Shown piece by piece: positions 13,035 to 38,262 of a DNA stretch of 40,641 bases. This stretch comes from Deltaproteobacteria bacterium. Its GTDB lineage: Bacteria > Desulfobacterota > Binatia > UTPRO1. Each line of letters begins with the position of its first letter. Positions within the stretch are counted from its first letter, which is position 1. The notes under the pieces are model-generated. The model was not told where the DNA came from. It searched no databases and saw only the letters and a program-made list of their open reading frames with translations. The stretch spans positions 1 to 40,641 of the forward strand of contig JADLHM010000119.1 in assembly GCA_020848745.1 (NCBI GenBank), written 5' to 3'. The translations under genes and the position numbers were made by a program.

Positions 13035-14183
13035 CTAGAGTCCGAGCTCGCGCGCGATCATCTCGCGCTGTAGCTCGCTCGATCCCTCGCCGAGCTCGAA
13101 GACCTTGCAGTCGCGGTAGAAGCGGCTGACCGGCGACTCGGACATGAAGCCGCTGGCGCCGTGGTAGTGCAGCGCCCGCTCCACGATGCGCGTGCAGGCC
13201 TCGGTGGCGTAGAGCTTGGCCATGGAGGCCTCGCGGCCGTGGGGAAGTCCCCGATCGGCGGCGATCGCGGCGCGGTGGCACAGCAGGCGCGACGCTTCGA
13301 CCTGCACCGCCATGTCGGCGATGCCGAAGCGCACCGCCTGGAACGATCCGATCGGGTGGCCGAACTGCGTGCGCGCCCGCGCATGGCCGAGCGTGGCGTC
13401 GAGCGCCGCCCGCGCCAGCCCGACCGCGAAGGCCGCCGAGGCGATCCTCCCGAGCGTGAGCGTGTGGAGCGCGTCGAGAAAGCCGTGATGCTCTCGACCG
13501 ATCCGGTTGCCGGCGGGAACGCGGCAATCCTCGAAGACGAGCTCCGCCATCTCGGAGGCCCGCACGCCGAGCTTCGAGAGCGAGGCGGCCACGCGGAATC
13601 CCGGCCGGTCGCGCTCGACGAGGAAAAGCGAGAGTCCCTTGAGCCGCCGCTCGGGAGCCGTCGACGCGACCACGATCAGGAAATCCGCGATGGGTCCGTT
13701 GGTGATGAAGAGCTTCGCGCCGTTGATCACATAGGAGTCGCCGTCGGCGACGGCTCGAGTCGCGACCGAGCCCGCGTCGGACCCGGCGCCCGCCTCCGCG
13801 AAGGCCCATCCACCGATCCGTTCGCCCTGGAGCGCCGGGGGGAGCCAGTGCCGTCCGAGGTCCGCGGAGCCGAAACGTTCGAGCGCCGCGCAGGCCAGCG
13901 CCATGTGGACGTAGATGCCGAGCGCGATACCCGCCGATCCGTAGGCGAGCTCTTCGCAGAGGATCGCGTAGTCGAGGTTCGTCCCGCCCGATCCGCCGAC
14001 CTCCTCGGGAAAGCGCAGCCCGAGATAGCCGAGCGCGCCGAGTTGGGGGAAGATCTCTCTCGGGAAGCGCTCCTTCGCGTCGCAGGCGGCCGCGATGGGG
14101 ACGATCTCGTTCGCGACGAACTCCCGCAGTGCCCGCTGGAGCTCGCGCTGCTCGTCGCTGAGATAGAAATCGGGTTCGGCCAT
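13035..14183 (-). CDS. Acyl-CoA dehydrogenase
   Basis: A 382-residue FAD-dependent dehydrogenase that introduces a 2,3-double bond into an acyl-CoA and passes electrons to ETF. The N-terminal helical domain (from YLSDEQRELQRALREF), the middle beta domain with AEAGAGSDAGS and KLFITNGP, and the C-terminal helical domain are complete. The canonical catalytic base is kept: LGEGSSELQR aligns with the YEGTxEIQR motif, with Glu in the proper place. It is the last gene of a three-gene leftward operon, 1 nt after the crotonase stop. It differs from its paralogues on the other side of TetR, so each may act on a different chain or position. Confidence 0.93.
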   Translation of the reverse strand: MAEPDFYLSDEQRELQRALREFVANEIVPIAAACDAKERFPREIFPQLGALGYLGLRFPEEVGGSGGTNLDYAILCEELAYGSAGIALGIYVHMALACAALERFGSADLGRHWLPPALQGERIGGWAFAEAGAGSDAGSVATRAVADGDSYVINGAKLFITNGPIADFLIVVASTAPERRLKGLSLFLVERDRPGFRVAASLSKLGVRASEMAELVFEDCRVPAGNRIGREHHGFLDALHTLTLGRIASAAFAVGLARAALDATLGHARARTQFGHPIGSFQAVRFGIADMAVQVEASRLLCHRAAIAADRGLPHGREASMAKLYATEACTRIVERALHYHGASGFMSESPVSRFYRDCKVFELGEGSSELQREMIARELGL

Positions 14184-14184
14184 C

Positions 14185-14964
14185 TCAGCGGCCTCGGAAA
14201 ACCGGCGCGCGCTTCTCGTCGAAGAACGCCCGCACCCCTTCGCGATGGTCCTCGGTCTGGATGCAGTTCGTCTGGGCGAAGATCTCGTAGTCGAACTCCG
14301 CGTCCCGGGTGAGGTCGAGCGAGCGGCGGATGGCGCGCTTCGTGAAGGCCAGGGCGATGGGCGGCCCGTTGCGCAGCCGCTCGGCGAAGGATCGGACTTC
14401 GTCGTCGAGCGTCTGCGCCGGGACCACGCGATGCACGAGGCCGAGGGCGAGCGCTTCGTCGGCGTGAACGAGCCTTCCGGTCATCATGAGCTCGGTCGCG
14501 GCGCCGAGCGGGATGAGCCGCGGCAGGTAGTAGCCGGCCGCCATGTCGCAGCCCGCGAGCCCGATCCGCACGAAGGGCGCGCCCATGCGGATCCCCTCTC
14601 GCGCGATGCGGAAGTCGCAGGCAATGGCGAGGCCGAGGCCTCCGCCGACGGCGTCGCCCTGGAGCCGCGCGATGACGGGGATGTCGAGGTCGGCGATCCG
14701 GCGAACGGGGTCGAGGTACCGGTCCACGATGGGCGCCCATTCGCTCGGCGGGCGCTCGACCATCTCGGCGCGGTCGGCGCCGGCGCAAAACGCCGGCCCT
14801 TCCGCGGTGAGGATCAAGACCCGATCGTCGCGGGTACGGACCTCGTCCAACGCCTCGATCAAGGCATTCAACATTTCGGAGCCGAGGGCGTTCAGCTGTT
14901 TCGGTCGGGCGAGGGTGATGGTCGCGATGCCATCGTGGCTCTCCAGTCGAAGCGGCGCGCTCAT
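14185..14964 (-). CDS. Enoyl-CoA hydratase/isomerase-family (crotonase fold) protein lacking both catalytic Glu
   Basis: A 259-residue crotonase-fold protein acting on a CoA thioester. The start (ATITLARPKQLNAL), FCAGAD oxyanion loop and LQGDAVGGGLGLAIACDFRI oxyanion helix are clear. The two glutamates that hydrate enoyl-CoA are absent: the first site is Gly (GGGLGL instead of GGCEL) and the second falls in APFVRIGLAGCDM without Glu. The Asp in GLAGCD may serve instead, as the crotonase superfamily also includes hydrolases, isomerases, dehalogenases and lyases. The reaction is therefore open. It lies between the amidohydrolase (3-nt gap) and acyl-CoA dehydrogenase (1-nt gap). Confidence 0.88.
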   Translation of the reverse strand: MSAPLRLESHDGIATITLARPKQLNALGSEMLNALIEALDEVRTRDDRVLILTAEGPAFCAGADRAEMVERPPSEWAPIVDRYLDPVRRIADLDIPVIARLQGDAVGGGLGLAIACDFRIAREGIRMGAPFVRIGLAGCDMAAGYYLPRLIPLGAATELMMTGRLVHADEALALGLVHRVVPAQTLDDEVRSFAERLRNGPPIALAFTKRAIRRSLDLTRDAEFDYEIFAQTNCIQTEDHREGVRAFFDEKRAPVFRGR

Positions 14965-14967
14965 CGT

Positions 14968-15822
14968 TCAGCCCTCGAGGCCGAAGGCGCGGATCGCGTT
15001 GTCGCGCACGATCTTGCGGTAGGCGCTGTCCGAGACGCCGAGCTCGCGGAGCTCCGTGAGCGTGCGGTCGAAGGTGAGCAGCGGATAGTCGGTCGCCCAC
15101 AGCACCTTGTCCTGGCCGTAACCGTTCGCGAACTTGACGAACGACTCGGGCCAGTGTTTCGGCGTCCGCGCGCTCGTCTCGACGTAAACGTTCGGATGCT
15201 TCCACGCCAGCACCATCATCTCCTCGTGCCAGGGCTGCCCCAAGTGACACCCGAGAATCACGAGCTCGGGGAACGCGAGGGCGACCTCGTCGAGATAGAT
15301 GGGCCGACCGGCCTCCGAGGGGAGCAGCGGACCGGTGTGGCCCACCTGGATCGCGACGGGAAGCCCGAGCTCGACGCACTTGGCGTACACCGGCCAATAC
15401 ATCTTCTGGTTCGGCGGCGAGCCGACCGTGCCGTCGCCGTAGGCATAGGGCTCGAGACGGAGGCCGCGGAGCCCGAGCTGCTTCGCCAATCGCTCGATCT
15501 GGCGCACGACGTCCATGGGCTTGCCGCGCGGATCGACCGTGCCGACGCCGGTGAAGCGGTCGGGGTGCTTGGCGCAGCACTCGGCCACTTCCTCGTTCGT
15601 GATGATCTCGACGTTGCCGTAGCCGAACGCCGAGAGCATCAGCCGCTCGACACCGGCCGCGTCCATCTGGTCGATGAGCTGCGAGACGGTCACGCCCCGC
15701 TCGAAGAGCTCGAGGGTGCCGTAGCGCTTGAAGATGTGGATGAACTCGGCAGGCCACCGATCGAGGGTTCCCGGCCGAACGAGGGTAGCCCAGGCGTCGA
15801 TCGCTCCGACGGTCTTGCTCAT
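14968..15822 (-). CDS. Amidohydrolase-2 family metal-dependent hydrolase or decarboxylase
   Basis: A 284-residue TIM-barrel protein of the PF04909 group (ACMSD, resorcylate decarboxylase and lactone hydrolase relatives). Later metal-site motifs are visible: VGHTG, GCHLGQPWHEE and the WATDYPLL Asp. At strand 1, where the family usually has HxH, it reads DAW (residues 9-11), so metal binding may differ. This is a recurrent subgroup near acyl-CoA catabolic genes, and the reaction is unknown. The ATG at 15822 is preferred over an upstream in-frame start because it has AAGGAG 7 nt upstream and homology begins there. It is the first gene of the leftward arm, divergent from TetR. Confidence 0.85.
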   Translation of the reverse strand: MSKTVGAIDAWATLVRPGTLDRWPAEFIHIFKRYGTLELFERGVTVSQLIDQMDAAGVERLMLSAFGYGNVEIITNEEVAECCAKHPDRFTGVGTVDPRGKPMDVVRQIERLAKQLGLRGLRLEPYAYGDGTVGSPPNQKMYWPVYAKCVELGLPVAIQVGHTGPLLPSEAGRPIYLDEVALAFPELVILGCHLGQPWHEEMMVLAWKHPNVYVETSARTPKHWPESFVKFANGYGQDKVLWATDYPLLTFDRTLTELRELGVSDSAYRKIVRDNAIRAFGLEG

Positions 15823-15870
15823 GACAGTCTCCTTTCCGGTGGGACATGGGTCCCGGCTCGTCGTGGCAGT

Positions 15871-15910
15871 CGCATAACAAGTTGACAAAAGATCGTCAAC
15901 TGTTAAGTTG
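15871..15910. promoter_or_regulatory. Divergent promoter and TetR operator between amidohydrolase and TetR genes
   Basis: AGTTGAC (15880-15886) and GTCAACT (15895-15901) form a 7-bp inverted repeat with an 8-bp spacer, and a third half-site AGTTG follows at 15906-15910. A minus-strand promoter is visible: TTGACG (15899-15894), 17-bp spacer, TATGCG (15876-15871) with an extended TGT before it. On the plus strand TTGACA (15882-15887) is followed after 16 bp by TAAGTT (15904-15909), a weak -10 that would start transcription near the TetR ATG. Overlap of the half-sites with both -35 boxes suits autorepression and control of both arms. Confidence 0.6.
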
Positions 15911-15916
15911 CACGCA

Positions 15917-16537
15917 ATGCTCGAGTCCAATCAGGCCCCGGTGGAGTCGTCGGACGCGACCCGTGACACCATTCTCGAGGCGGCGCGGCGACGCTTCCTG
16001 CGCTTCGGGGTGCGCAAGACGACGATGGACGAGGTTGCGCGCGAGGCGGGTTGTTCGCGCACCACCCTCTATGCCCACTTCCGGAATAAGCAGGATCTCT
16101 ACGCACGGTTGCTCGAGCAGGATACGGAGACGTTCATTCGGGAGACGAGCGGTGTGCTCGCGACCGAAGGGAACGCCGGCGCGAAGATCCGCCGCATCGT
16201 CGAGATCACACGGCACACCTACGCGCGCAATCACGTCATGCGTCTGGCGCTCGCGCGGGATGCGGAGATGAGTCTCGAGCCCGTCGCGCGCGCGTTCACG
16301 CGCGACCAGGAGCAACGCATCGTCGGCCTGCTGCGCCAGGCTCTCGAGGAGGGCGTGAAGGAGGGGTCGCTGCGGTCGATCGACACCGAGCGTGTCGCCT
16401 ATCTGATGTTCCACCTCGGTCGGTTCCTCGTCGAGCGCGAGACGGCCGGCGTCGGCGACTACCCGTTCGACGAGATCGTGGCGCTCATGGACGAGGTCTT
16501 CGCGCGCGGCATCGGAAAGTCACGCGCGGGGCGCTGA
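15917..16537 (+). CDS. TetR/AcrR-family transcriptional regulator of the catabolic locus
   Basis: A 206-residue repressor. The N-terminal DNA-binding domain (about 14-60) contains ILEAARRRFLRFGVRKTTMDEVA and the recognition helix CSRTTLYAHFRNKQDLY. The C-terminal ligand and dimer domain has no recognisable subgroup. By family behaviour it probably binds the AGTTGAC repeat next to its own start and is released by an acyl-CoA or related inducer. A TTG at 15908 is in frame, but it overlaps the third operator half-site, so the ATG at 15917 is preferred. The first structural gene begins 9 nt after its stop, so the regulator is probably the first gene of the rightward operon. Confidence 0.9.
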   Translation: MLESNQAPVESSDATRDTILEAARRRFLRFGVRKTTMDEVAREAGCSRTTLYAHFRNKQDLYARLLEQDTETFIRETSGVLATEGNAGAKIRRIVEITRHTYARNHVMRLALARDAEMSLEPVARAFTRDQEQRIVGLLRQALEEGVKEGSLRSIDTERVAYLMFHLGRFLVERETAGVGDYPFDEIVALMDEVFARGIGKSRAGR

Positions 16538-16546
16538 GGAGGGTTG

Positions 16547-17740
16547 GTGGTCAGCTTCGAGCTTTCCGACACGATCCGGGCGGTTCGCGATCTCATACAC
16601 ACGTTCGCGGAGAACCAGATCCGGCCGGTCGCTCCTCGCCACGACGAGGACGAGTCGTTCCCGTGGGAGGTGCTCGAGAAGGCCAAAGCCATCGGACTCC
16701 TCCTCGACTACGCGCGTCCCGCCGACGAGTCCGACACTGAGCGTGCCGGGAATCCGGTGGCAGCGGAGCGGAACCTCCTCTCCGCCGTTGCGGCCGAGGA
16801 GCTCGGCTGGGGCTGCGCGGGGATCACGATCGCGATCCAGGGGACGGCCTTCGCCGCGGCCCCCGTCCAGATGTTGGGGACGCCTGGGCAGCGCGCCTTC
16901 TTCGGGGAGTGCCTCGATGGGCGCGACGAGGACGGTCACCTCAAGGTGGCGAGCCTCGCGCTGACCGAGCCGGACGCCGGATCGGACCTCTCGCGCGTCG
17001 CGACGACGGCGGTGAAGGACGGCGGCTGCTACGTCCTCAACGGGCGCAAGCAGTTCGCGACGAACGGGAGCCTCGCGAGCATCTATGTCGTCTGGGCCTC
17101 GGTCGATTCCGCGGCGGGCCGCGCTGGCCTGCGGGCGTTCCTCGTTCCCCGCGGCACACCCGGTCTGATTCCGGGGAAGAAGGAGCGCAAGCTCGGGATC
17201 CGGGCCTCGGACACCGCGGGCGTGATCCTCGAGGACTGCCGGGTTCCGGCAGCGCAGATGCTCGAGCCGCGCACGCCTCAGCGCGGGGGAGCCAAGGGGG
17301 TGCTCGACGCCACGCGGCCCATGGTGGGGGCACTGTCGCTCGGCGTCGCGCGGGCGGGGCTCGAGGTGGCCACCGAGTACGCGCGAGAGCGCGTCCAGTT
17401 CGGAGAGCCCATCGCCAAGAAGCAGGGCGTAGCCTTCCAGCTCGCGGACATGGCCATGGAGATCGAGGCCGCCCGCGGCCTGGTGTGGAAGGCCGTGTGG
17501 TTGGCGGATCGCGGAATCCCGAACGCGGCGATTGCGGCCATGTCCAAGGCGAAGGCCGCCGCCGTGGCCATGGACGTGACGACCCGGGCGATCCAGATCC
17601 TCGGCGGATACGGCTTCTGCCGGGACTACCCGGTCGAGAAGTGGTTCCGCGACGCCAAGATCATGGACATCTTCGAGGGCACGGGGCAGATCCAGCGCAC
17701 CATCATCGCGCAGGAGCTGACCGGTCTCGACTGCAAGTAG
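16547..17740 (+). CDS. Acyl-CoA dehydrogenase (canonical catalytic Glu)
   Basis: A 397-residue FAD enzyme. The middle domain shows LALTEPDAGSDLSRV and GRKQFATNGS. The C-terminal part has QILGGYGFCRDYPVEKWFRD and IFEGTGQIQR, in which Glu is the standard base that removes the alpha proton. It is close in style to short or branched-chain acyl-CoA dehydrogenases. GAGGAGGG (16536-16543) overlaps the TetR stop. The GTG at 16547 leaves 3-4 nt from it, while a TTG at 16544 would abut it, so the GTG is chosen. It is the first enzyme gene of a ten-gene rightward run, followed 12 bases later by another family member. Confidence 0.92.
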   Translation: MVSFELSDTIRAVRDLIHTFAENQIRPVAPRHDEDESFPWEVLEKAKAIGLLLDYARPADESDTERAGNPVAAERNLLSAVAAEELGWGCAGITIAIQGTAFAAAPVQMLGTPGQRAFFGECLDGRDEDGHLKVASLALTEPDAGSDLSRVATTAVKDGGCYVLNGRKQFATNGSLASIYVVWASVDSAAGRAGLRAFLVPRGTPGLIPGKKERKLGIRASDTAGVILEDCRVPAAQMLEPRTPQRGGAKGVLDATRPMVGALSLGVARAGLEVATEYARERVQFGEPIAKKQGVAFQLADMAMEIEAARGLVWKAVWLADRGIPNAAIAAMSKAKAAAVAMDVTTRAIQILGGYGFCRDYPVEKWFRDAKIMDIFEGTGQIQRTIIAQELTGLDCK

Positions 17741-17751
17741 GAGACGCCGCC

Positions 17752-18909
17752 ATGGCTTTCCCCCAGTGGACCGACGAGCACGAGGCCTTCCGCGAGAGTG
17801 TCCGGCGCTTCGCGGCCGAGGAGATCCGCCCCTTCGCCGAGAAGTGGCAGGCGGAGGGCGCCTTTCCGGACGATCTCTTTCGCAAGGCGGGAGAGAACGG
17901 CCTCCTCGGCGTGCGCTTCGACCCGAAGTGGGGCGGCAGCGGGCTCGACTACTGGTACACCGTCATCCTAGTGGAAGAGCTGGTGCGCGGCCGCGACATC
18001 GGTTGTGTCGTGGGTCTGCTGGTTCAGTGCGAGATGGCGACGGCCGTGATCCACGACCACGCCACCGACGCGTTGCGCAAGGAGTGGCTGGTGCCCGCGA
18101 TCACCGGCGAGCGCATCGCCGCGCTCGGCGTGTCGGAGCCGGGTGGTGGCTCCGACGTGGCGTCGCTCCATACGACCGCGAAGGCTGACGGCGACGACTA
18201 CGTCATCCGCGGCTCGAAGATCTTCATCTCGAACGGCGCGCGCGCGGATTTCGTCACCCTGGCGGTCCGCACCGGCGGCCCCGGGCCGGGCGGCGTGAGC
18301 CTCGTAGTGTGTCCGACCGACGCCGAGGGCTTCCAGGTGAGCCGCCGGCTCCAGAAGGTCGACCTCCACTCGAGCGACACGGTGGAGCTCTTCTTCGACG
18401 ACGTGCGGATTCCGCGGACCAATCTGATCGGCGAGGAGGGGCGGGGGTTCCGCTACATCATGCAGGCCTTCCAGGGCGAGCGCCTCGTGCTCGCCACCAT
18501 GATGAACGCGGTGTGCCGGGACGTCATGGAGGAGACGCTCGCCTACATGGGGGAGCGCAAGGTCTTCGGCCAGCCGATCGGATCGATGCAGGCGTGGCGC
18601 CATCGCATGGCCGACTGGATCACGCGCCTCGAGGCATCCGAAGCGCTCACCTATCGTGCGGCCGATCGACTCGCCGACGGCGATCCGCAAGGCGAGCTGG
18701 CCGTCAGCATGGCGAAGCTCTACGGCGCCGAGCTGATCCGCGGCCTCGTGCTCGACTGCGCCCAGGCCCACGGCGGCTACGGGTTCATGGCGGACAACTA
18801 CGTCGCGCGGTGCTCGCGGGGTCTCCAGAACTGGGGCATCGGAGCCGGCTCGAGCGAGGTGATGCGCGAGATCATCGCCAAGCGCCGGATGGCGGTGGCT
18901 GGCGCGTGA
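17752..18909 (+). CDS. Acyl-CoA dehydrogenase, isovaleryl-CoA dehydrogenase-like active site
   Basis: A 385-residue FAD enzyme with GVSEPGGGSDVAS and GSKIFISNGA in the flavin domain. At the usual base position it reads GIGAGSSEVMR, with Ala instead of Glu. This is the pattern of isovaleryl-CoA dehydrogenase, whose base sits earlier in a ERLVLA segment; the same GERLVLA is present here. The enzyme is thus expected to be active on branched or long substrates with a relocated catalytic Glu. ATG with AGGAGA about 7 nt upstream. It overlaps the next gene by 4 nt (GTGA). It pairs with the preceding dehydrogenase, either as two enzymes in series or as an unequal complex. Confidence 0.92.
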   Translation: MAFPQWTDEHEAFRESVRRFAAEEIRPFAEKWQAEGAFPDDLFRKAGENGLLGVRFDPKWGGSGLDYWYTVILVEELVRGRDIGCVVGLLVQCEMATAVIHDHATDALRKEWLVPAITGERIAALGVSEPGGGSDVASLHTTAKADGDDYVIRGSKIFISNGARADFVTLAVRTGGPGPGGVSLVVCPTDAEGFQVSRRLQKVDLHSSDTVELFFDDVRIPRTNLIGEEGRGFRYIMQAFQGERLVLATMMNAVCRDVMEETLAYMGERKVFGQPIGSMQAWRHRMADWITRLEASEALTYRAADRLADGDPQGELAVSMAKLYGAELIRGLVLDCAQAHGGYGFMADNYVARCSRGLQNWGIGAGSSEVMREIIAKRRMAVAGA

Positions 18910-20039
18910 GCCGGCGCGCGGTCATCGCCGGCGTGGGCCACACGGCCTTCGGGAAGTTCCCGGATCGCACGGCCTGGGATCTCGAGGCCGAGGCGGCCGC
19001 GGCCGCGGTCGCGGATGCCGGGCTTCGCCCCGCTGACGTGGACGGGCTCCTCACCGATCCGGGAGCCGTGCAGGGGATCCTCGACGGCATCACGCCGCAC
19101 TTCCTTCGCCTGGGCGCCCAACTCGGTCTCGACCCGACCTACACCGGGTCCGAGATCCTCGGCGGCGCCGGAAGCGTCGCGATCGTGGAGCGCGCCGCGC
19201 TCGCGGTCGAGGCCGGGCTCTGCGAGGCGTGCCTGTGCGTCTATGGCGACAGCGCGCTCTCGGGCGCCGACGCGTACGGGTACGGACGCGGCGACGAAGC
19301 CGCCTTCGGCTTCTTCGGAGCGGCCGGGCTGCACGCGCTCGCGGCGCGCCGGCACATGCACCGCTACGGCACGCGCCCCGAGCACCTCGGCGAGGTCGCC
19401 GTCGCTGCGCGCGCCTACGCGGCCCGGGTCCCGCATGCCCAGAAGCGCGGCGCGCTCGGCATGGACGAGTATCTCGCCTCCGATCCGATCGTCGAGCCGC
19501 TCCGGCGCCTGGACTGCTGTCTGGTCTCGGACGGCGCCGCCGCCGTGGTGGTGACGACGGCGGAGCGCGCCGCCGGGTCGCGCCGACCGGCGATCCCCAT
19601 TCTCGGGCACGCGCAGGCGCATAGCCTCTCGACCTATGCCTCGCCCGACCACTTCGACGCGCTGCCGGCCAGCCGCTCGGGCCCCGAGGCGTTCGGCCGT
19701 GCCGGTGTCGCACCGGCCGACGTCGACGTCGCGCTCCTCTACGATTGCTTCACCATCGTGGTGCTGCTGCAGCTCGAGGACTACGGCTTCTGCGAGAAGG
19801 GAGAGGCGGGACCGTTCGTCGAGGGGGGCCGGATCGGGCCGGGCGGGAGCCTGCCCGTGAACACCAGCGGCGGGCTCCTCGCCGAGGGGTACGGCGGCGG
19901 CATGCTCCACGTGATCGAGGCGGTGCGGCAGCTGCGCGGCGACGCCGGGGACCGCCAGGTCGCGGATGCCGAGGTGGCGCTCGTCTCCGGACATGGACTC
20001 GGCATGAACACCCACGCGACGCTGGTGCTGGGGGTCTGA
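18906..20039 (+). CDS. Thiolase-fold protein without nucleophilic Cys, SCP2/Ltp2-like
   Basis: A 377-residue thiolase-superfamily protein starting RRAVIAGVGHTAFGK. Where thiolases have the nucleophile (NxCxS), it reads GSEILGGAGSVAI, without Cys. The C-terminal CGGG element is also changed (SGHGLGMNTHA), while YDCFT, GFCEKGE and NTSGGLLAEGY blocks are kept. Such Cys-less members paired with DUF35 proteins include Ltp2, which with ChsH2 performs retro-aldol cleavage of steroid side-chain CoA esters. The DUF35 gene follows 1 nt downstream, supporting an aldolase complex rather than a thiolase. Substrate unknown. The GTG start overlaps the preceding stop by 4 nt. Confidence 0.87.
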   Translation: MSRRAVIAGVGHTAFGKFPDRTAWDLEAEAAAAAVADAGLRPADVDGLLTDPGAVQGILDGITPHFLRLGAQLGLDPTYTGSEILGGAGSVAIVERAALAVEAGLCEACLCVYGDSALSGADAYGYGRGDEAAFGFFGAAGLHALAARRHMHRYGTRPEHLGEVAVAARAYAARVPHAQKRGALGMDEYLASDPIVEPLRRLDCCLVSDGAAAVVVTTAERAAGSRRPAIPILGHAQAHSLSTYASPDHFDALPASRSGPEAFGRAGVAPADVDVALLYDCFTIVVLLQLEDYGFCEKGEAGPFVEGGRIGPGGSLPVNTSGGLLAEGYGGGMLHVIEAVRQLRGDAGDRQVADAEVALVSGHGLGMNTHATLVLGV

Positions 20040-20040
20040 C

Positions 20041-20460
20041 ATGTCCGTTACCTCCGCGCCGTTGGCTCCGCGACCCGACGCGTTGACGCGGCCCTTTTGG
20101 GAGGCCTGTAGCCGCGGAAGGCTGGAAGTGTCGGCGTGCGCGGACTGCGGACACCTGTTCTTGCCTCCCGGTCCCTGCTGTCCGCGCTGCTGGTCGCGGC
20201 GGCTCGCGGCGCGCGCGGTTTCCGGGAACGGGCGGGTGTGGAGCTTCGCGACCTACCGCCGCACCTACCATCCGGCCATGCCGGCGCCCTACGTCGTCGC
20301 CCTCGTCGAGCTCGACGAGGGGCCCCGCCTGATTTCCAACGTCGTGGGGTGCGCGCCGGAAGACGTCGCGATCGACATGCCGGTCCGCGTCCGCTTCGAG
20401 GAGGTCGGGGAGTTCACCCTGCCGCGCTTCGAGCCGCTGAGTGGCGGGGGACGATCGTGA
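20041..20460 (+). CDS. DUF35 zinc-ribbon/OB-fold partner protein
   Basis: A 139-residue protein. A helical start (ALTRPFWEACSRGRLEVSAC) leads to a zinc ribbon with C33, C36, C47 and C50 (CADC...CPRC), then an OB-fold (VWSFATYRRTYHP, APYVVALVEL). DUF35 proteins bind thiolase-fold enzymes and help deliver or position acyl-CoA. Examples are the archaeal thiolase-HMG-CoA synthase complex and ChsH2 with Ltp2. Position directly behind the Cys-less thiolase-like gene strongly suggests a physical pair. The ATG lies 2 nt past the previous stop, and the end overlaps the crotonase start (GTGA). Confidence 0.92.
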   Translation: MSVTSAPLAPRPDALTRPFWEACSRGRLEVSACADCGHLFLPPGPCCPRCWSRRLAARAVSGNGRVWSFATYRRTYHPAMPAPYVVALVELDEGPRLISNVVGCAPEDVAIDMPVRVRFEEVGEFTLPRFEPLSGGGRS

Positions 20461-21248
20461 CGATCCGCTTCGAACGCGCGGGAGCGATCGCGATCGTCAC
20501 GATCGATCGTCCCGAGGTGCTGAACGCGCTCGACGCCGCGACCAGCGACGCCCTGGTGGAGGCCTGGCGCCGCTTCCAGGCGGACGGCGATCTCCGCGTC
20601 GCCGTCTTGACCGGCGCGGGCGAGCGCGCGTTCTGCGCCGGCGCGGATCTCCGCGGGGTCGGCGACTTCTACCGGAGGCTCACGTCCGCCGAGCGCCTGC
20701 GGCGCTCGGAGCAGGCGCCCGGGCTCGGGGGGATCACGAAGAATCTCGCGATCGACAAGCCCATCCTCGCGGCGGTGAACGGCCACTGCCTCGCCGGGGG
20801 GCTCGAGATCGCCCTCGCGTGCGATCTCCGGATCGCCGCGGAGAACGCCACGTTCGGTCTGCCCGAGGTCACGCGCGGCATCCTCCCCGGCGCCGGCGGG
20901 ACGCAGCGCCTGCCGCGCCTGATCGGGCCGGCGCACGCCCTCGACCTGATCCTGACCGGTCGCCGGATCGATGCCCGCGAGGCGGAGCGGATCGGCCTGG
21001 TCACGCGCGTCGTCCCGCCGGCCGAGCTTCGCGATGCGGCGCTGGCCGTGGCGTCCGCCATCGCGGCGAACGGCCCGCTCGCCGTCCGTGCCGCCAAGGC
21101 CTCGGTGTGGCGCGGTCTCGATCTTCCCCTCGAAGATGGCCTCCGGCTCGAGCAGCTGCTCGCCGAGCCCGTGCGCCAGAGCGACGACGCCCAGGAGGGC
21201 GTGCGCGCCTTCCTGGAGAAGCGTCCACCCGACTTCAAGGGGAGGTGA
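20457..21248 (+). CDS. Enoyl-CoA hydratase with both catalytic Glu
   Basis: A 263-residue crotonase-fold enzyme expected to add water across 2,3-enoyl-CoA. It has the IDRPEVLNALD start, FCAGAD, the oxyanion helix GHCLAGGLEIALACDLRI with the first catalytic Glu, and FGLPEVTRGILPGAGG with the second. Both glutamates are present, unlike the crotonase at 14185-14964. C-terminal EGVRAFLEKRPPDFKGR is typical. It starts at a GTG in the previous stop, preceded by GGCGGGGG. In the pathway it would produce the beta-hydroxyacyl-CoA cleaved by the neighbouring thiolase-like/DUF35 pair. Confidence 0.93.
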   Translation: MTIRFERAGAIAIVTIDRPEVLNALDAATSDALVEAWRRFQADGDLRVAVLTGAGERAFCAGADLRGVGDFYRRLTSAERLRRSEQAPGLGGITKNLAIDKPILAAVNGHCLAGGLEIALACDLRIAAENATFGLPEVTRGILPGAGGTQRLPRLIGPAHALDLILTGRRIDAREAERIGLVTRVVPPAELRDAALAVASAIAANGPLAVRAAKASVWRGLDLPLEDGLRLEQLLAEPVRQSDDAQEGVRAFLEKRPPDFKGR

Positions 21249-21250
21249 GG

Positions 21251-22096
21251 ATGCCCGTTCCTCCGCGACGCCACGTCGGCCAGTACGTCGCCTCCGGAGA
21301 CTGGAGCGGCTACTGGACCACGCGCATCAGCCGCGCCGAGCGCGGGAAGATCTGGGTGCGCGGCTACCCGATCGAGGAGCTGATGGAGGGGCTCTCCTAT
21401 TCGGAGGCGGCCTTCCTGCTCCTGCGCGGCGAGCTGCCCGGCGCGCGCGAGGCCGCGCTCTTCGACCTCGCGCTGCGGAGCGGCATGGACCAGCAGCTCA
21501 TCAGCTCGGCCGCGTGCGCCGCGCGCTACACGGCCTCGGCGTTTCCCGACTCGCCGATCCCCGCGCTGGCGAGCGGCATCCTCGCGAGCGGATCGGTCAC
21601 GGGATCACCGCAGGAGCCGGCCGAGATGCTGATCGCGGCGGTGGGATGGGACATCGGGGAAGACGAGGCGGCGTCCCGCGCGCTCGATCACTGGCTCGCG
21701 CGCCGCGGATTCGTTCCGGGCCTCGGCCATCCCGTCCACAAGGGGAGCGAGCCCCGCGCGGTGACGCTGCGGCGGTTGGCACTCGAGCTCGACGGCTGGC
21801 GTGAGCACGGACGGATGCTCGATGCGATCGCGGCCGCGCTCGCCCGGCGCAAGCGGCGGGCGGTGCCCATCAACCTGGCCGGCGCCCTCGGCGCCGTCTA
21901 CGCCGACCTCGGCTTCGACCCGCTGGCGATCGGCGGCCTCGGGGCGCTCGGCTACGGGATGGCGCTGCTCGCTCACATCGTCGAGGAGATCCGCGAAGGG
22001 GTGCCGCTGCGGATCATTCCCGATGCGCTCGGCGCGCGCTACGCGGGCCCCGCCGAGCGGCACCTGCCGAAGCGGCGCCGCAAGAGTCGTCCATGA
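21251..22096 (+). CDS. Citrate synthase/citryl-CoA lyase-fold protein with altered active site
   Basis: A 281-residue protein of the short citrate-synthase family (citryl-CoA lyase-like). It keeps the domain start (RISRAERGKIWVRGYPIEELM), and GLGHPVHKG carries one of the catalytic His. Two other triad positions look changed: the GPLHG-type His region reads GSVTGSPQEP, and the NVD-type Asp region reads INLAGALGAV. By eye only one of three catalytic residues remains, so condensation of citrate-synthase type is unlikely; a lyase, hydrolase or scaffold role is possible. The ATG at 21251 is 5 nt after GGAGG. It overlaps the ligase gene by 4 nt (ATGA). Confidence 0.82.
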   Translation: MPVPPRRHVGQYVASGDWSGYWTTRISRAERGKIWVRGYPIEELMEGLSYSEAAFLLLRGELPGAREAALFDLALRSGMDQQLISSAACAARYTASAFPDSPIPALASGILASGSVTGSPQEPAEMLIAAVGWDIGEDEAASRALDHWLARRGFVPGLGHPVHKGSEPRAVTLRRLALELDGWREHGRMLDAIAAALARRKRRAVPINLAGALGAVYADLGFDPLAIGGLGALGYGMALLAHIVEEIREGVPLRIIPDALGARYAGPAERHLPKRRRKSRP

Positions 22097-23658
22097 TCCA
22101 TCCCTACGCGCACTATCCGGCGCGCGCGGCGAGGCGCTGGCCCGACCGGATCGCCCTCGTGGACGGCGTGCGCCGCCGGAGCTATCGCGACCTCGACCTG
22201 CGCGCGACGTGTCTGGCGCGCGCGCTGGTCGGCCTCGGCCTGCGCCCGGGGGAGCGCGTGGCGGTCGTGCAGGAGAACCGCATCGAGTACGTGGAGATCG
22301 TGATCGCGATCGCCCGCGCCGGCGGGGTGCTCGTGCCGCTGCTCGGCGCGCTCACCGCCGGCGAGCATGCCTTCATGGTGCGGGATTCCGAGGCTCGCTT
22401 CGTCGTGGCTCTGGGCGTGGAGGGCATCGCGCGCGCGCGTGCGGCGGCGGCCGGCGCCGACGCCATGGTGCTGACCCTGGCGGCCGGAGACGGCGCGACG
22501 GATCTGTCGGCGCTCGCCGATGGCGAGCCCGCGGAGCCGCTCGTCGTCGATCGCCCGCCCGCCTCGCTGGCGCAGCTCCTCTACACCTCGGGCACGACCG
22601 GACATCCGAAGGGCGTCACGCACAGCTACGCCAGCGTCGCCGCGGCGATGGGGGCGTGGGCGGGCGGCTTCCGGATCGGACCCGACGATCGGCTCCTCGG
22701 ACAGCTCGCGCTCTCCCATTTCGGGGGGCGGGCCATGGATGCCTGCTGGATCGCGGGCGCGACGCTCGTGATCCTCCCGGGACCCGACCCGAAGGCCGTG
22801 CTCGACGCCATCGCCGAGGAGCGCATCACGATGATCCTCGTGGTCCCGACCCTGCTGCGCATGTTGCTCGACCATCCGGACGCCGAGCGCACCGATCTCT
22901 CGAGTCTCCGTGCCGTCGTCTACGCGGCCGCGCCCGCGGCGCCGGCGCTCGTGCGGCGCTCGCTCGAGCGGCTCGGTCCCGTCCTCTACACCGGCTTCGG
23001 GCAGACCGAAGCCTACGGGCTCAATACCTGGATGGATCCCGAGGAGCATGTGGCGGCGCTCGACGCCGGGGGAGGGCGCCTGGCTTCCGTCGGACGCGAG
23101 TGCGCGGCCTTCGCGCAGGTCCGGATCGTCACCGAGGACGGACGGGTGGCGCCACCGGACGCCGTGGGCGAGATCTGCGTGTGCGCGCCCTGGACGACGC
23201 CCGGCTTCTGGAAGCGTCCCGATCTCGACCGTACGCGACTGCTGGAGGACGGCTGGCTCCGCACGGGCGACCTCGGTCGCGTCGATCGGGAGGGCTACGT
23301 CTTCCTCGCCGATCGCACGGAGGACAAGATCATCACGGGTGGCTTCAACGTGTATCCGGGCGAGGTCGAGGGAGCGCTCTCGGAGCATCCGGCGGTGGCC
23401 GAGTGCGGGGTGTTCGCGGTCCCCGATCCGAAGTGGGGCGAGGCGATCCGCGCGGCCGTGACGCTCCGGCCCGGCGCGAGCGCGAGCGCCGAGGAGCTGC
23501 TCGCGTTCTGCAAGGCGCGCCTCGCGCGTTTCAAGGTGCCGAAGGCGATCGACGTGGTGGCCGAGCTTCCGAAGAGCGGTGTCGGAAAGATCCTGCGGCG
23601 CGCGCTTCGCGAGCCCTGGTGGAAGGGCGAGCCGAGCGGCGTGCACGGAGCGGAGTGA
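22093..23658 (+). CDS. AMP-forming acyl-CoA synthetase/ligase
   Basis: A 521-residue ANL-superfamily adenylating enzyme that activates a carboxylic acid to its CoA thioester through an acyl-AMP. Motifs: P-loop YTSGTTGHPKGV (about 164-175), GFGQTEAYG, the A8 hinge region TGDLGRVDREGYVFLADR with EDKIITGGFNVYPGEVE, and the C-terminal catalytic Lys at about 499 in SGVGKILRR. Length is normal. Substrate is not predictable. The start ATG overlaps the previous stop. In context it would activate the acid made by the hydroxylase and dehydrogenases encoded downstream. Confidence 0.94.
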   Translation: MIHPYAHYPARAARRWPDRIALVDGVRRRSYRDLDLRATCLARALVGLGLRPGERVAVVQENRIEYVEIVIAIARAGGVLVPLLGALTAGEHAFMVRDSEARFVVALGVEGIARARAAAAGADAMVLTLAAGDGATDLSALADGEPAEPLVVDRPPASLAQLLYTSGTTGHPKGVTHSYASVAAAMGAWAGGFRIGPDDRLLGQLALSHFGGRAMDACWIAGATLVILPGPDPKAVLDAIAEERITMILVVPTLLRMLLDHPDAERTDLSSLRAVVYAAAPAAPALVRRSLERLGPVLYTGFGQTEAYGLNTWMDPEEHVAALDAGGGRLASVGRECAAFAQVRIVTEDGRVAPPDAVGEICVCAPWTTPGFWKRPDLDRTRLLEDGWLRTGDLGRVDREGYVFLADRTEDKIITGGFNVYPGEVEGALSEHPAVAECGVFAVPDPKWGEAIRAAVTLRPGASASAEELLAFCKARLARFKVPKAIDVVAELPKSGVGKILRRALREPWWKGEPSGVHGAE

Positions 23659-23661
23659 ATC

Positions 23662-24915
23662 ATGACGTACGACTACAAGGTGCTGGCCGGCCCCGTCTTC
23701 TTCCTGCTGATCGGGATGGAGGCCTGGCTCTCGCGGCGGCGCGGCTGGGGATACTACCGCCTGAACGACGCGGTCAGCGACGTCAGCACGAGCATGCTGA
23801 TGCAGCTCGTGATGTTGCTCTCACGGGGCGCGGTCGTGGCGGGATATTTCGTGATCCACGCGCACTTCCGCATCGTCGACCTCCCGGCGGATCGGGCCTG
23901 GACCTGGATCGCGTGCTTTCTCGGGGTCGACTTCGGCTACTACTGGTTCCACCGCTCGAGTCACGAGATCAACTTCCTGTGGGCGGCGCACGTGGTGCAC
24001 CACCAGAGCGAGGACTACAATCTCGCCGTCGCCCTCCGGCAGAGCACGCTGCAGCCCTTTTTCGGCGCCGTCTTCTACTGGCCGCTCGCGCTGCTCGGCT
24101 TCCCGCCCGTCGTCTTCCTGGCCTGCGCGTCCTTCAACACCATCTATCAGTTCTGGCTCCACACCCAGGCCATCGGGACGCTCGGGCCGCTCGAAGCCGT
24201 CCTGGTGACGCCGTCGCATCACCGCGTGCACCACGCGCGGAACCCGCGCTACATCGACCGGAACCACGGCGGGACGTTCATCGTCTGGGATCGGCTGTTC
24301 GGCACGTTCGAGCGGGAGCGGGAAGCGGTCGTCTACGGGATCACGAAGCCGCTCGCGAGCTGGAATCCGCTCTGGGCGAATCTCCACTACTGGGCGGAGC
24401 TCTGCCGGACGGCCCGGCGGACACCGCATCCGCTCGACAAGCTCCGGACCTTCCTGAAGCCCCCCGGCTGGTTTCCCGCGGATCAGGGCGGCTTCCGGCC
24501 CCCGCCTCCGGTGCCCGACGCGCCGGTGAAGTTCGATTGCCCCTATGCTCCGGCGCTCGGGCGCTACGCGCTCGTCCAGTTCGTGCTGCTCGTCGGCGCC
24601 ACCGTCGTGCTGAGCTTCTGCGCGGGCATGTACGAGCTCGGCGCCGGGCTCGCGGCGATCGGCGTCGTCGGGTGGGGCTTCGTGAACCTCGGAGGGCTCT
24701 TCGATGGGCGCGCGTGGGCCCGGCGCTCCGAAGCCGTGCGCGTCGTCACGGCGCCCGCCGTGGCGCTGCTCGTGCTCTCGGGCGCCGTTGCCTGGGCGAG
24801 CGCCGTGGTCCTGTTCCTCGGCGTGCCGTTCTTCTTCCTGGTATCGCGCGCCGGCAGCCGCGGCGCGCCCGCGCCCGAGTGGGGCATCGAGGCCGTGAGC
24901 GGGAGGAGCCGATGA
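23662..24915 (+). CDS. Membrane diiron fatty acid hydroxylase/sterol desaturase family protein
   Basis: A 417-residue integral membrane protein. Transmembrane stretches at about 8-20, 45-65 and 80-95 precede the histidine clusters: H97 and H101 (HRSSH), H110 with H113/H114 (HVVHH), H167, and H186/H187 with H190/H191 (HHRVHH). These bind two irons in enzymes that hydroxylate or desaturate sterols, fatty acids, carotenoids or alkylglycerols with O2. An extra C-terminal section of about 110 residues with three more hydrophobic helices (about 300-400) resembles alkylglycerol monooxygenase-like proteins. Inside this operon it probably performs the first oxygenation of a hydrophobic substrate. 3-nt gap from the ligase, 4-nt overlap with the dehydrogenase. 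Confidence 0.88.
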   Translation: MTYDYKVLAGPVFFLLIGMEAWLSRRRGWGYYRLNDAVSDVSTSMLMQLVMLLSRGAVVAGYFVIHAHFRIVDLPADRAWTWIACFLGVDFGYYWFHRSSHEINFLWAAHVVHHQSEDYNLAVALRQSTLQPFFGAVFYWPLALLGFPPVVFLACASFNTIYQFWLHTQAIGTLGPLEAVLVTPSHHRVHHARNPRYIDRNHGGTFIVWDRLFGTFEREREAVVYGITKPLASWNPLWANLHYWAELCRTARRTPHPLDKLRTFLKPPGWFPADQGGFRPPPPVPDAPVKFDCPYAPALGRYALVQFVLLVGATVVLSFCAGMYELGAGLAAIGVVGWGFVNLGGLFDGRAWARRSEAVRVVTAPAVALLVLSGAVAWASAVVLFLGVPFFFLVSRAGSRGAPAPEWGIEAVSGRSR

Positions 24916-25952
24916 AGGGCGTTCGCCTCCATCCGGGATCGTCGGTGCGGGTCGAGGAGCTGCCGGAGCCGGCGCTCGGGTCCGGTCAGGTCCGTATCGC
25001 GGTACGAGCGGCCGGTGTGTGCGGCACCGATCTGCACGCCGCGCACGGTCGCCTTCCCGTGCCGGCGCTGCCGGTGATCATGGGACACGAGGGGGCGGGT
25101 GTCGTCGAGCGGCTCGGTGCGGGCGTTTCGGGCGTCGCCGTCGGCGATCGTGTCCTGTTGCTGCCGAGCGAGACCTGCGGCGCGTGTCCGGCCTGCGAAG
25201 CGGGGCACCTCGGCCTGTGCGCGGGGGCGCGCATCCTCGGCATGGCGCGCGACGGCACCTTCGCGGAGCAGATCGCCGTGCCCGTGTCGTGCGTGTGTCC
25301 GCTCCCCGACGCCATTGCGTTCGAGCACGGCGCCATCCTGGCGGACGCGGTCGCCACGGCCTACCACGCCGCCGCCACGCGCGCGGCCATCACGGGCGGC
25401 GAGCGGGTGGCGGTGATCGGCTGCGGTGGCGTCGGGTATCATGTGATCCTGCTGGCGCGGCTGCTCGGCGCGCGGACGATCGTCGCGGTCGATGCCAGCG
25501 CGGGCGCTCGTCGCCGCGCCGAGGCCGCCGGCGCCGACGCCATCGTGGACCCGTCCGCTGCCGAGGCTCGCAAGGCCATCCGTCGCGCCGCGGGCGGCGA
25601 AGGCCCCGACCTCGTGATCGAGTACGCGGGGAAGAAGGAATCGGTCGAGCTGGCGATGGCGTCCGTGGCGCGGGGCGGGCGGGTGATCGTCGGCGGCGTA
25701 GGGATGGAGTCGCCGACGCTCGGTCCCCTGGTTTCCTTCGTCGGGCGCGAGATCGGCGTGCTGGGCTCGATGGGCTATACGCGCGCCGAGCTCGCGCGCG
25801 TGGTGGAGCTCGCGGCGTCGGGCCGGCTCGACCTCTCCGGCTCGATCACCGCCCGCTACCCGCTCGAGCGAGCGGTCGAGGCGCTCGCCGACCTGGCGAG
25901 CGGACGGGGCGATCCGGTGCGCCTCGTGCTCCTTCCCGGAGCGTCGGCGTGA
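24912..25952 (+). CDS. Zinc-dependent alcohol dehydrogenase (MDR family), first of two
   Basis: A 346-residue medium-chain dehydrogenase. The catalytic zinc site is C37 (GVCGTD), H59 and E60 (GHEGAG). The structural zinc cysteines are C89, C92, C95 and C103. The nucleotide motif GCGGVGYHV (from about 170) and an acidic residue after VAVDAS suggest NAD. It oxidises an alcohol, substrate unknown. ATG in the preceding stop (ATGA), with GGGAGGAG about 4 nt upstream. It is followed by a second, divergent MDR gene with the same overlap; the pair may take an alcohol through aldehyde or oxidise two different hydroxyls. Confidence 0.92.
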   Translation: MKGVRLHPGSSVRVEELPEPALGSGQVRIAVRAAGVCGTDLHAAHGRLPVPALPVIMGHEGAGVVERLGAGVSGVAVGDRVLLLPSETCGACPACEAGHLGLCAGARILGMARDGTFAEQIAVPVSCVCPLPDAIAFEHGAILADAVATAYHAAATRAAITGGERVAVIGCGGVGYHVILLARLLGARTIVAVDASAGARRRAEAAGADAIVDPSAAEARKAIRRAAGGEGPDLVIEYAGKKESVELAMASVARGGRVIVGGVGMESPTLGPLVSFVGREIGVLGSMGYTRAELARVVELAASGRLDLSGSITARYPLERAVEALADLASGRGDPVRLVLLPGASA

Positions 25953-28323: not shown

Positions 28324-29541
28324 ATGCTCGATCATGACCTCGATTTGGACCTGACCGAGGACGAACGATCCGTTCGTCGGCTCGTGCATCGCTTCGCCGC
28401 GGACGTGATGCGACCGGCCGGCCGCGAGCTCGATCTGCTCGACAGCGAGGATGTCATCGAGCACGGGTCCGTTCTCTGGGACGTGCATCGGCGATGGGAT
28501 GCCCTCGGCGTGAGGCTGCTCTCCGGCGAGTCCACCGGCATGAGCCCGGCCTCGATCGCACGGCTCTCCTGCATCGTCAACGAGGAACTCGGGTGGGGAG
28601 ACTCGGGACTCGCGGTCAGCATCGGCGCCGCCGAGTTCCCGGCCATGCTGGCGCGCGCCACGCAGAACCCCGAGCTGATGGAGGCATTTCCCACCGGCAG
28701 CCTCGGGTGCTGGGCCATCACCGAACCCGACCACGGTAGCGACGAGCTCGACTGGAGCGCGGACGACGAACGACCGGTCCTGAAACGGCCGAATTGCGTC
28801 GCGGAGCGCTGCGGCGACGACTACGTGATCCGCGGCCAGAAGGCTGCGTGGGTCTCCAACGGCACCATCGCGTCGTCCGCCGCGCTGTATACGGCGGTCG
28901 ATGAAGGGGACGGGATCCGCGGCTGCGGGGTCGTGCTCGTCGACCTCTCCTCGCCCGGCGTCTCGCGCGGCAAGCCCCTCGAGAAGATCGGACAGCGGCC
29001 GCTTCCCCAGGGGGAGATCTTCTTTGACGACGTGCGCGTGCCCGCGCGCAATCTCGTCGTGCCGCCGGCGGCGTATCCCATGATGCTCGAGCTCACGCTG
29101 TGCACGGCCAACGGCTTCATGGGCGCGACGTTCGCCGGCGTGGCGCGCGCGGCGTTCGAGCACGCCGTTGCCTACGCCAAGGAGCGCATCCAGGGCGGCG
29201 TGCCCATCATCGCGCACCAGTCGGTGCGCGCGAGCCTCTTCGAGATGTTCCGCAAGGTCGAGGCCGCGCGCGCGCTCAGCCGCCGCGTCGTCCTCTACAA
29301 CACCGTGCAGTCGCCGATGTTCGGCGGTAGCGGCACGCCCGCCGTCGAGTTCGCCATCGCATCGAAGGTGACGTCGACCCAGACCGCGTTCGAGGTGGCG
29401 AGCCAGGCCATCCAGATCTTCGGCGGCAACGGTCTGAGCCGCGAATACCCGGTGGAGAAGCTGATGCGCGACGCGCGAGCGTCGATGATCGAGGACGGCG
29501 TGAACGAGGTGCTCGGCCTGCACGCCGCCGGGAAGTTCTGA
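28324..29541 (+). CDS. Acyl-CoA dehydrogenase with Asp at the canonical base position
   Basis: A 405-residue acyl-CoA dehydrogenase-family flavoprotein. The middle domain shows AITEPDHGSDEL and GQKAAWVSNGT; the C-terminal domain shows QIFGGNGLSREYPVEKLMRD. The base motif reads IEDGVNEVL, so the position normally held by Glu (before Gly) is Asp, preceded by a Glu. It is among the more divergent family members here and may be slower, act on a different substrate, or use the neighbouring Glu. It is the first gene of the rightward arm, with a GAGGGTGG ribosome site just before the ATG and a leader after the TGGTAC boxes. Confidence 0.88.
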   Translation: MLDHDLDLDLTEDERSVRRLVHRFAADVMRPAGRELDLLDSEDVIEHGSVLWDVHRRWDALGVRLLSGESTGMSPASIARLSCIVNEELGWGDSGLAVSIGAAEFPAMLARATQNPELMEAFPTGSLGCWAITEPDHGSDELDWSADDERPVLKRPNCVAERCGDDYVIRGQKAAWVSNGTIASSAALYTAVDEGDGIRGCGVVLVDLSSPGVSRGKPLEKIGQRPLPQGEIFFDDVRVPARNLVVPPAAYPMMLELTLCTANGFMGATFAGVARAAFEHAVAYAKERIQGGVPIIAHQSVRASLFEMFRKVEAARALSRRVVLYNTVQSPMFGGSGTPAVEFAIASKVTSTQTAFEVASQAIQIFGGNGLSREYPVEKLMRDARASMIEDGVNEVLGLHAAGKF

Positions 29542-29579
29542 GCGCGACGCCGCCGCGATCGTCGCAACGGAGGAGGGTC

Positions 29580-30374
29580 ATGGAACTGAGGGAAGTCATC
29601 GGTCGCCGCCGCTCGATCCGTTTCGTTCGCCCATACCAGCCGGTCGAGCCCTGGAAGATCCAGATGATGCTGGAAGCCGCCCGCATCGCCTCGCACTGGG
29701 GCAACGTGCAAAGCCTGAACGCGGTGGTCGTCTGTCGCGACAGCGCGCCGCAGAGCACGCTCGATGCCCTTCAGGCGCCCGTTGCCGGATGGCAGATCCG
29801 CTTCGCGCCCGTCATCATCGTCTGGTACATCGACACGGCCGCCGTGGACGTGCAGAGCGATCGGTTGCGCGAGCTCGTCGACGTCGGCGCGCTCGGGTTC
29901 GGTCCGAAGGAGCAACGGCGCGAGGCGCTCGAGAAGCAGATCTTCCCGATCTTCGAGGGCATCCGCGAGGGGCTGAAGCAGCCCGGCCTCGGCGAGGTCG
30001 ACTGCGGGCAGGGCATCGCGCAGGCGACGCTCATGGCCTACGAGCTCGGACTCGGGACCTGCTGCCTCGGCACGCCCAACGGCGACGCCATCCGCGCCGG
30101 CCTCGGCATGCCGGAGAGCTGTCGCGTGCTGGTGCTGCAGACGGTCGGGTATCCGGCCGAGCACTGGGAAGCCGGCGGGCAGCGACCGCGCCGCCCCTTC
30201 GAGTCTCTCTTCCACCTGAACGAATACGGCAAGGCCTTCCCGCGTGACCCCGAAGTCGTCGAGACGCTGCGCCGCGACAAGATGTTCACGCGGCCCGCTC
30301 CGCTGCCGGGCCGTGAGGAGGAGCTCGCGTACCTGAAGCAGGCCATGGGTCTGAAGGGCACGGGGCTGCTCTGA
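29580..30374 (+). CDS. Nitroreductase-family FMN oxidoreductase
   Basis: A 264-residue protein of the nitroreductase fold: ELREVIGRRRSIRFVRPYQ (FMN phosphate contacts), then LEAARIASHWGNVQSLNAVVV, the GQGIAQATLMAYELGLGTCCLG helix, and VLVLQTVGYPAE. The family reduces quinones, nitro groups, enones or flavins with NAD(P)H. A C-terminal extension of about 45 residues follows. In this operon it may reduce an enoyl or nitro intermediate, but nothing shows the substrate. GGAGGAGGG precedes the ATG. Spacing is 38 nt from the dehydrogenase and 55 nt to the thiolase gene. Confidence 0.87.
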   Translation: MELREVIGRRRSIRFVRPYQPVEPWKIQMMLEAARIASHWGNVQSLNAVVVCRDSAPQSTLDALQAPVAGWQIRFAPVIIVWYIDTAAVDVQSDRLRELVDVGALGFGPKEQRREALEKQIFPIFEGIREGLKQPGLGEVDCGQGIAQATLMAYELGLGTCCLGTPNGDAIRAGLGMPESCRVLVLQTVGYPAEHWEAGGQRPRRPFESLFHLNEYGKAFPRDPEVVETLRRDKMFTRPAPLPGREEELAYLKQAMGLKGTGLL

Positions 30375-30429
30375 CGATGGAGCGGGAAGAACGCGCCGCC
30401 GCGAGGCAGAGCGGCAAAGGAATGAAACC

Positions 30430-31662: not shown

Positions 31663-31667
31663 CCGCC

Positions 31668-38113: not shown

Positions 38114-38125
38114 CAGCAGTCCCCC

Positions 38126-38151
38126 TGCTAAAGCTGCTAAAGCGACTTTAG
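38126..38151. promoter_or_regulatory. TGCTAAAGC repeats upstream of fic
   Basis: Two tandem copies of TGCTAAAGC (38126-38134 and 38135-38143) are followed by an inverted partner, so that CTAAAG (38137-38142), CGA, CTTTAG (38146-38151) is a perfect 6-bp inverted repeat. The cluster lies 13-38 bp upstream of the GTG start of fic. It looks like an operator, possibly for the winged-helix end of Fic itself. A TTGACA hexamer on the minus strand (38210-38205) may be a promoter part, but no well-spaced -10 was found. Confidence 0.5.
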
Positions 38152-38262
38152 GTCGCGTAGCGGATAATAAAGTGAACATAAGTCAGATTTATTAGTGCAC
38201 CTCATGTCAATCTTGCTGATCATCGCAAGCCGCCCCGAAGGCAGGCTCTGAGATCTCACGGT

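Follow-up and report, generated by a model that had tools for sequence, protein, structure and literature searches.

Introduction

Two solved pairs of a thiolase-fold protein and a DUF35 protein stand closest, by sequence and by fold, to the locus described here, besides the thiolase-annotated entry 4u4e. The first is TcLtp2-ChsH2(DUF35) (6ok1), the steroid C3 side-chain aldolase, and the second is CtSal-Shy(DUF35) (9myr), the bile-acid side-chain aldolase of Comamonas testosteroni. Catalysis by Ltp2 relies on Tyr294 of its YDHF motif plus Tyr344; in CtSal, which carries YDCY, Tyr302 and Cys304 are both essential by mutagenesis, Gln residues are proposed to activate Cys304, and the nucleophile site is a Gly, so that CtSal is incapable of thiolysis (PMC12329534). 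The Trypanosoma brucei protein TbSLP has been proposed to be an aldolase as well (PMC12329534).

Release of an acyl-CoA from a branched acid by retro-aldol cleavage has also been described for ibuprofen (IpfD-IpfE), where the retro-aldolase releases propionyl-CoA (PMC9195938), and a similar logic applies to C24-branched sterols through Ltp3/Ltp4 (PMC6273163). We liken these systems to the present pair by their descriptions; unlike it, they have known substrates, and their other cluster genes differ.

Here we report a thiolase-fold/DUF35 pair that probably forms a separate branch beside the known steroid side-chain enzymes, within a conserved degradation cluster. It lies in a 40,641-nt stretch of bacterial DNA, the whole of which we refer to as the window.

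Results

Gene layout

The thiolase-fold gene and the adjoining DUF35 gene belong to a divergent cluster, in which we distinguished the following features:

13035-14183 (-): acyl-CoA dehydrogenase with a canonical catalytic Glu (EGSSE); kept in most clusters
14185-14964 (-): crotonase-family protein without both hydratase Glu residues; kept in most clusters
14968-15825 (-): Amidohydro_2 protein (ACMSD/decarboxylase-like) with AIDAWAT at the expected HxH; cluster-conserved
15908-16537 (+): TetR-type regulator, by its position the probable controller of the divergent cluster
16544-17740 (+): second acyl-CoA dehydrogenase, shared only with the nearest relative (L013)
17752-18909 (+): acyl-CoA dehydrogenase of LCAD/isovaleryl-CoA dehydrogenase (IVD) type, with Glu in xGERL and IGAG replacing EGT; cluster-conserved
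18906-20039 (+): thiolase-fold ORF, predicted acyl-CoA retro-aldolase; 377 aa, GTG start
20041-20460 (+): free-standing DUF35 ORF of ChsH2 type; 139 aa, Cys4 zinc ribbon and OB fold
20457-21248 (+): crotonase-type enoyl-CoA hydratase (ECH_20457), EchA19-like, with both catalytic Glu residues; cluster-conserved
21251-22096 (+): citryl-CoA-lyase-like protein, citrate synthase fold, GHP.H retained; cluster-conserved
22093-23658 (+): AMP-forming acyl-CoA ligase; cluster-conserved
24912-25952 (+): Zn-dependent MDR alcohol dehydrogenase, in many clusters but not all; absent from L111-L114

The GTG start of the thiolase-fold gene overlaps the stop of the upstream acyl-CoA dehydrogenase as GTGA (18906), a 1-nt gap (20040) separates its own stop from the DUF35 ORF, and a second GTGA overlap, at 20457, joins the DUF35 stop to the GTG start of the gene that follows.

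Active site of the thiolase-fold protein

The product of 18906-20039 matches the Pfam models Thiolase_N and Thiolase_C_1. The sequence-only reading had placed GGAGS at its nucleophile position, and the alignment bears this out: GGAGS forms residues 86-90, and against the Cys-bearing thiolases (IEAACAS, and VENACAS from the window's own second thiolase, 30430-31662) the nucleophile column is Gly87, with no other Cys in its place. Gly87 is invariant in 39 of 39 close (cluster) homologues and likewise throughout a wider alignment of 45 rows, which rules out a sequencing error or chance. With the nucleophile Cys missing, ordinary thiolysis is not open to the protein, as had been claimed. The accompanying description "Cys-less" is right for the nucleophile but goes too far for the active site as a whole. 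Where SCP2-thiolases have HDCF, the window protein has YDCF (Tyr279, Cys281), and Cys281, one of seven cysteines invariant in the window clade, occupies the second catalytic position of SCP2-thiolases. Tyr279, Asp280 and Cys281 are unchanged in the 39 close homologues, and YDC(F/Y) is retained in nearly all of roughly 80 aligned homologues. The GHP His of SCP2-type thiolases is absent, GEGYGG being aligned at that site.

Tyr279 and Cys281 correspond to the Tyr302/Cys304 dyad of CtSal. Since this is the pair that is conserved, the predicted retro-aldolase would, judging by its residues, most likely follow the Sal mechanism and not the Ltp2 mechanism. Tyr329 falls in the column of Ltp2 Tyr344 (Tyr in 37 of 39 close homologues, Phe in L111 and L112; His, Gly or Asn in some wider relatives), and an auxiliary contribution of the Ltp2 type from this residue is possible. 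The Gln pair beside the Cys of CtSal is not retained: Leu324 stands at the column of Gln347, and around Gln352, close to Tyr329, the alignment is gapped.

The loss of both the Cys nucleophile and the thiolase GHP His would also suit a degenerate, non-catalytic thiolase that serves other cluster enzymes only as a scaffold. This is very improbable; the substitute active-site residues are invariant in 39 clusters, down to 59-67% identity, which points to catalysis.

Fold and family placement

The AlphaFold model of the protein (pLDDT 93.7, pTM 0.94) has the SCP2-thiolase fold. Its best PDB matches, Ltp2 (6ok1, Z 53.2), Sal (9myr, 52.8), TbSLP (52.6), archaeal ACAT (52.4) and 4u4e, all fall at Z 51-53, a near tie, and the function is therefore not decided by fold alone; acyltransferases such as PhlC are found among the matches too. 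The highest sequence match (E 9.6e-73) is 4u4e, a 'thiolase' of Sphaerobacter thermophilus from the PRK06158 subfamily, which likewise has Gly at the nucleophile position. Its motif, however, is YDSF, and the window protein scores 346 with the PRK06158 model, below the cut-off of 421.

TcLtp2 shares with the window protein the lack of the nucleophile Cys, the catalytic Tyr of YDxF and the Tyr at the Tyr344 column, and its partner shares the four-Cys ribbon; the pair gives both the best DUF35 match and the best fold match. The Ltp2-ChsH2 pair had been named as the closest known logic. That comparison stands insofar as this pair is one of the two nearest solved ones in both sequence and fold, but the YDCF motif resembles CtSal and TbSLP, not the YDHF of Ltp2, and the window protein does not pass the NCBIfam Ltp2 model PRK07855, which requires 469 bits and gives it 255. 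A separate Ltp2 on another contig of the same genome (C32) passes it with 637 bits. In a tree of 59 proteins, in which Sal is a single, long-branched reference, the window clade is distinct from Ltp2 with support of 100/100, and TcLtp2 groups with the C32 protein, also at 100/100.

CtSal has the same Gly at the nucleophile, the same YDC(Y/F) dyad, a DUF35 partner and the same fold, at 33% identity over the structural alignment. The two systems nonetheless differ in several respects. The DUF35 domain of Shy is fused to a MaoC hydratase and has a Cys3His1 site, whereas the window DUF35 protein stands alone with a Cys4 site; the hydratase of the window cluster is a crotonase; and CtSal is steroid-linked while the window clade probably is not. 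The window pair is thus neither Ltp2 nor a demonstrated Sal.

TbSLP (5ab4-5ab7) shares the YDCF motif and the fold, but is eukaryotic and only 27% identical to the window protein; we know of no DUF35 partner for it. It has slow malonyl-CoA decarboxylase activity (PMC12329534), and together with the PhlC-type acyltransferases among the fold matches it brings up another explanation, namely that the window protein works in the synthetic direction, or is an acyl-CoA decarboxylase or Claisen-type enzyme that dispenses with a Cys nucleophile. We regard this as quite improbable: CtSal, with the same dyad, is without malonyl-CoA decarboxylase activity (PMC12329534), and the surrounding cluster of ligase, acyl-CoA dehydrogenases and hydratases appears catabolic.

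The DUF35 partner

The presence of a DUF35 gene next to the thiolase-like gene was confirmed. The product of 20041-20460 matches the Pfam models zf-ChsH2 and OB_ChsH2_C, in agreement with the four-Cys zinc ribbon and OB-fold read from the sequence; its Cys33, Cys36, Cys47 and Cys50 are invariant in 38 of 38 relatives, and its best PDB match is ChsH2(DUF35). A same-strand DUF35 gene lies within 1.5 kb in 74 of the 85 homologous loci. The exceptions inside the window clade are technical, one locus lying at a contig end (L025) and another having an adjacent DUF35 gene that was missed by frame bookkeeping (L041). We considered L041 as a fusion of the two proteins and rejected this, judging from the frames, as a stop-to-stop frame artefact.

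Genuine exceptions belong to distant members, such as those from Binatia. Five YDCF homologues, four from Binatia and one from a 'Deltaproteobacteria' metagenome-assembled genome (MAG) (L053, L054, L055, L057 and L061), showed no DUF35 gene in the fetched flanks, and their partner may have been lost or may lie elsewhere.

A conserved, patchily distributed cluster

Largely the same genes, in two main arrangements and with gene identities of roughly 43-95%, occur at 34 loci (L010-L043) in MAGs of Myxococcota/'delta', alpha-, beta- and gammaproteobacteria. The cluster is also present in five genomes of the same class (L110-L114, of which L110 is one and the same record as L024). The core consists of the CoA ligase, the LCAD/IVD-type dehydrogenase, the crotonase, the aldolase-DUF35 pair, the citryl-CoA-lyase-like protein and the amidohydrolase-like protein. 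It occurs patchily, in 9 of 148 genomes of the class, a distribution consistent with an accessory pathway that has moved horizontally.

The most compact version, L112, has seven genes in a row (amidohydrolase, thiolase-fold protein, DUF35, enoyl-CoA hydratase, citryl-CoA-lyase-like protein, ligase and acyl-CoA dehydrogenase). A Liv-type ABC transporter and a second ligase, both recognised by reading their sequences, are additionally present at some alpha- and betaproteobacterial loci. Even among the distant loci, 12 of 46 have a hydratase-like gene at most 4.5 kb from the thiolase-fold gene. All plasmid relatives fall below 60% identity, and no named isolate with a close cluster was found among them. 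Our literature search gave no match for a cluster combining amidohydrolase, citryl-CoA lyase, and DUF35 or a lipid-transfer protein. The monoterpene ring cleavage (mrc) genes of Castellaniella defragrans were considered as a known pathway and rejected; the genes central to that pathway are Bad-like, and the text of the paper never uses the term "thiolase".

Steroid markers in the carrier genomes

As the best-characterised relatives work on steroid-CoAs, the window pair might be a duplicated Ltp2 or Sal that attacks the side chain of a steroid or of a C24-branched sterol, in the manner of Ltp3/Ltp4. Indeed, the genome that carries the window holds steroid side-chain genes, in an igr-like operon (L107, contig C32, 6665-12760) that encodes Ltp2 together with a steroid 3-ketoacyl-CoA thiolase. 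The model nearest to ECH_20457, moreover, is that of EchA19, with 277 bits for a cut-off of 400, and Ltp3, Ltp4, FadD19 and EchA19 belong to branched-sterol degradation (PMC6273163). Against this stand the separation from Ltp2 in the tree and the failed Ltp2 model, and also the compact L112 operon, which is flanked by unrelated, non-catabolic genes such as a Mur ligase. Furthermore, searches of five cluster-bearing genomes (G034 and G148-G151) turned up neither Ltp2 (at E<1e-60) nor KshA_C, and nothing in them scored above the cut-off for FadA5. Carriers without these markers make a steroid role unlikely for the window clade, and we consider such a role for the window pair itself unlikely too.

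KshA_C has no match in the window's own genome, and the Ltp2 on C32 reads YDAF in place of YDHF. The same genome contains two more thiolase-like/DUF35 pairs without the nucleophile Cys, L001/L091 (C12) with YDCY and L004/L092 (C103) with YDCF; neither is a steroid Ltp2.

Discussion

Predicted reaction and pathway

The missing nucleophile, the adjoining DUF35 gene and the two closest solved pairs make a CoA-linked retro-aldolase, as proposed by the sequence-only reading, the best reading of the pair. From these comparisons and from the gene neighbourhood we infer its activity, complex formation, reaction direction and substrate: the pair is likely an aldolase that cleaves a 3-hydroxyacyl-CoA by a retro-aldol reaction of the Sal type, probably on a tertiary or otherwise non-oxidisable substrate. 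By analogy with Ltp2-ChsH2 and Sal-Shy we expect a heterotetramer, in which the DUF35 protein would shape one wall of the substrate cleft. By homology with CtSal, the 3-hydroxyl of the substrate would hydrogen-bond to the backbone at Gly87, the former site of the thiolase nucleophile; Tyr279 would take the hydroxyl proton as the C-C bond breaks, and the thiol of Cys281 would protonate the acyl-CoA enolate. Cleavage would release a carbonyl compound together with acetyl-CoA or propionyl-CoA.

The neighbouring enzymes suggest what precedes this step. The acyl-CoA dehydrogenase adjacent to the thiolase-fold gene has Glu at the LCAD/IVD-type position in every aligned relative (the LCAD entry 8w0z has Gln at exactly this position). 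Glu at this position is the catalytic base of these families, and IVD and LCAD accept branched chains. An acid would thus be activated to its acyl-CoA by the ligase, dehydrogenated to the 2-enoyl-CoA by the LCAD/IVD-type enzyme, hydrated to a tertiary 3-hydroxyacyl-CoA by ECH_20457, which retains both hydratase Glu residues, and cut to a ketone and acetyl-CoA by the aldolase pair. It is from this position, after CoA ligation, the LCAD/IVD-type dehydrogenase and the crotonase, that a tertiary (beta-branched) or non-oxidisable 3-hydroxyacyl-CoA appears the likely substrate and a ketone the likely product. By Pfam matches, there is no 3-hydroxyacyl-CoA dehydrogenase among the annotated cluster genes, as would be the case were the hydrated product cleaved without being oxidised. 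The MDR dehydrogenase of many clusters, although missing from L111-L114, could oxidise a 3-hydroxyacyl-CoA, which counts against this explanation. So does the finding that M. smegmatis needs EchA19, whose model is the nearest to ECH_20457, only in part (PMC6273163).

In our view the cluster is best read as a pathway outside steroid degradation that handles beta-branched or bulky acyl-CoAs. More tentatively, and with rather less than an even chance of being right, we suggest that the cluster encodes an undescribed pathway for beta-branched (for example isoprenoid or alicyclic) acids, which would proceed without biotin-dependent carboxylation, use a retro-aldolase cut and have spread between Myxococcota and Pseudomonadota. 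If so, the thiolase-derived aldolases, hitherto characterised mainly on steroid side chains, would reach into a non-steroid pathway, and the Sal-type Tyr/Cys dyad would be widespread. Relatives in the public record are labelled 'thiolase' or 'acetyl-CoA acetyltransferase', and re-annotating them would alter the predicted catabolism of many uncultured bacteria.

Other features of the cluster and the window

In the Amidohydro_2 protein, AIDAWAT or close variants replace the metal-binding HxH in 29 of 29 aligned relatives, and it may be a changed TIM-barrel enzyme. The crotonase-family protein at 14185-14964, which lacks both hydratase Glu residues and has a conserved LAGCDM stretch, is probably not a plain hydratase. 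The citryl-CoA-lyase-like protein is possibly a second C-C lyase of the same pathway.

A second catabolic block (28324-33275, forward strand) encodes an acyl-CoA dehydrogenase, a nitroreductase-family protein, a thiolase with the normal Cys (VENACAS) and an AMP ligase. In L014 the last three of these also lie near the cluster. The reverse-strand genes at 33402-40639 form a restriction/defence-like island adjoining the catabolic cluster. They encode an HsdR-like protein that bears a Schlafen AlbA_2 domain, a Fic protein and an ImmA-like protein with an M78 peptidase domain, as well as an HsdS-like protein recognised by reading its sequence.
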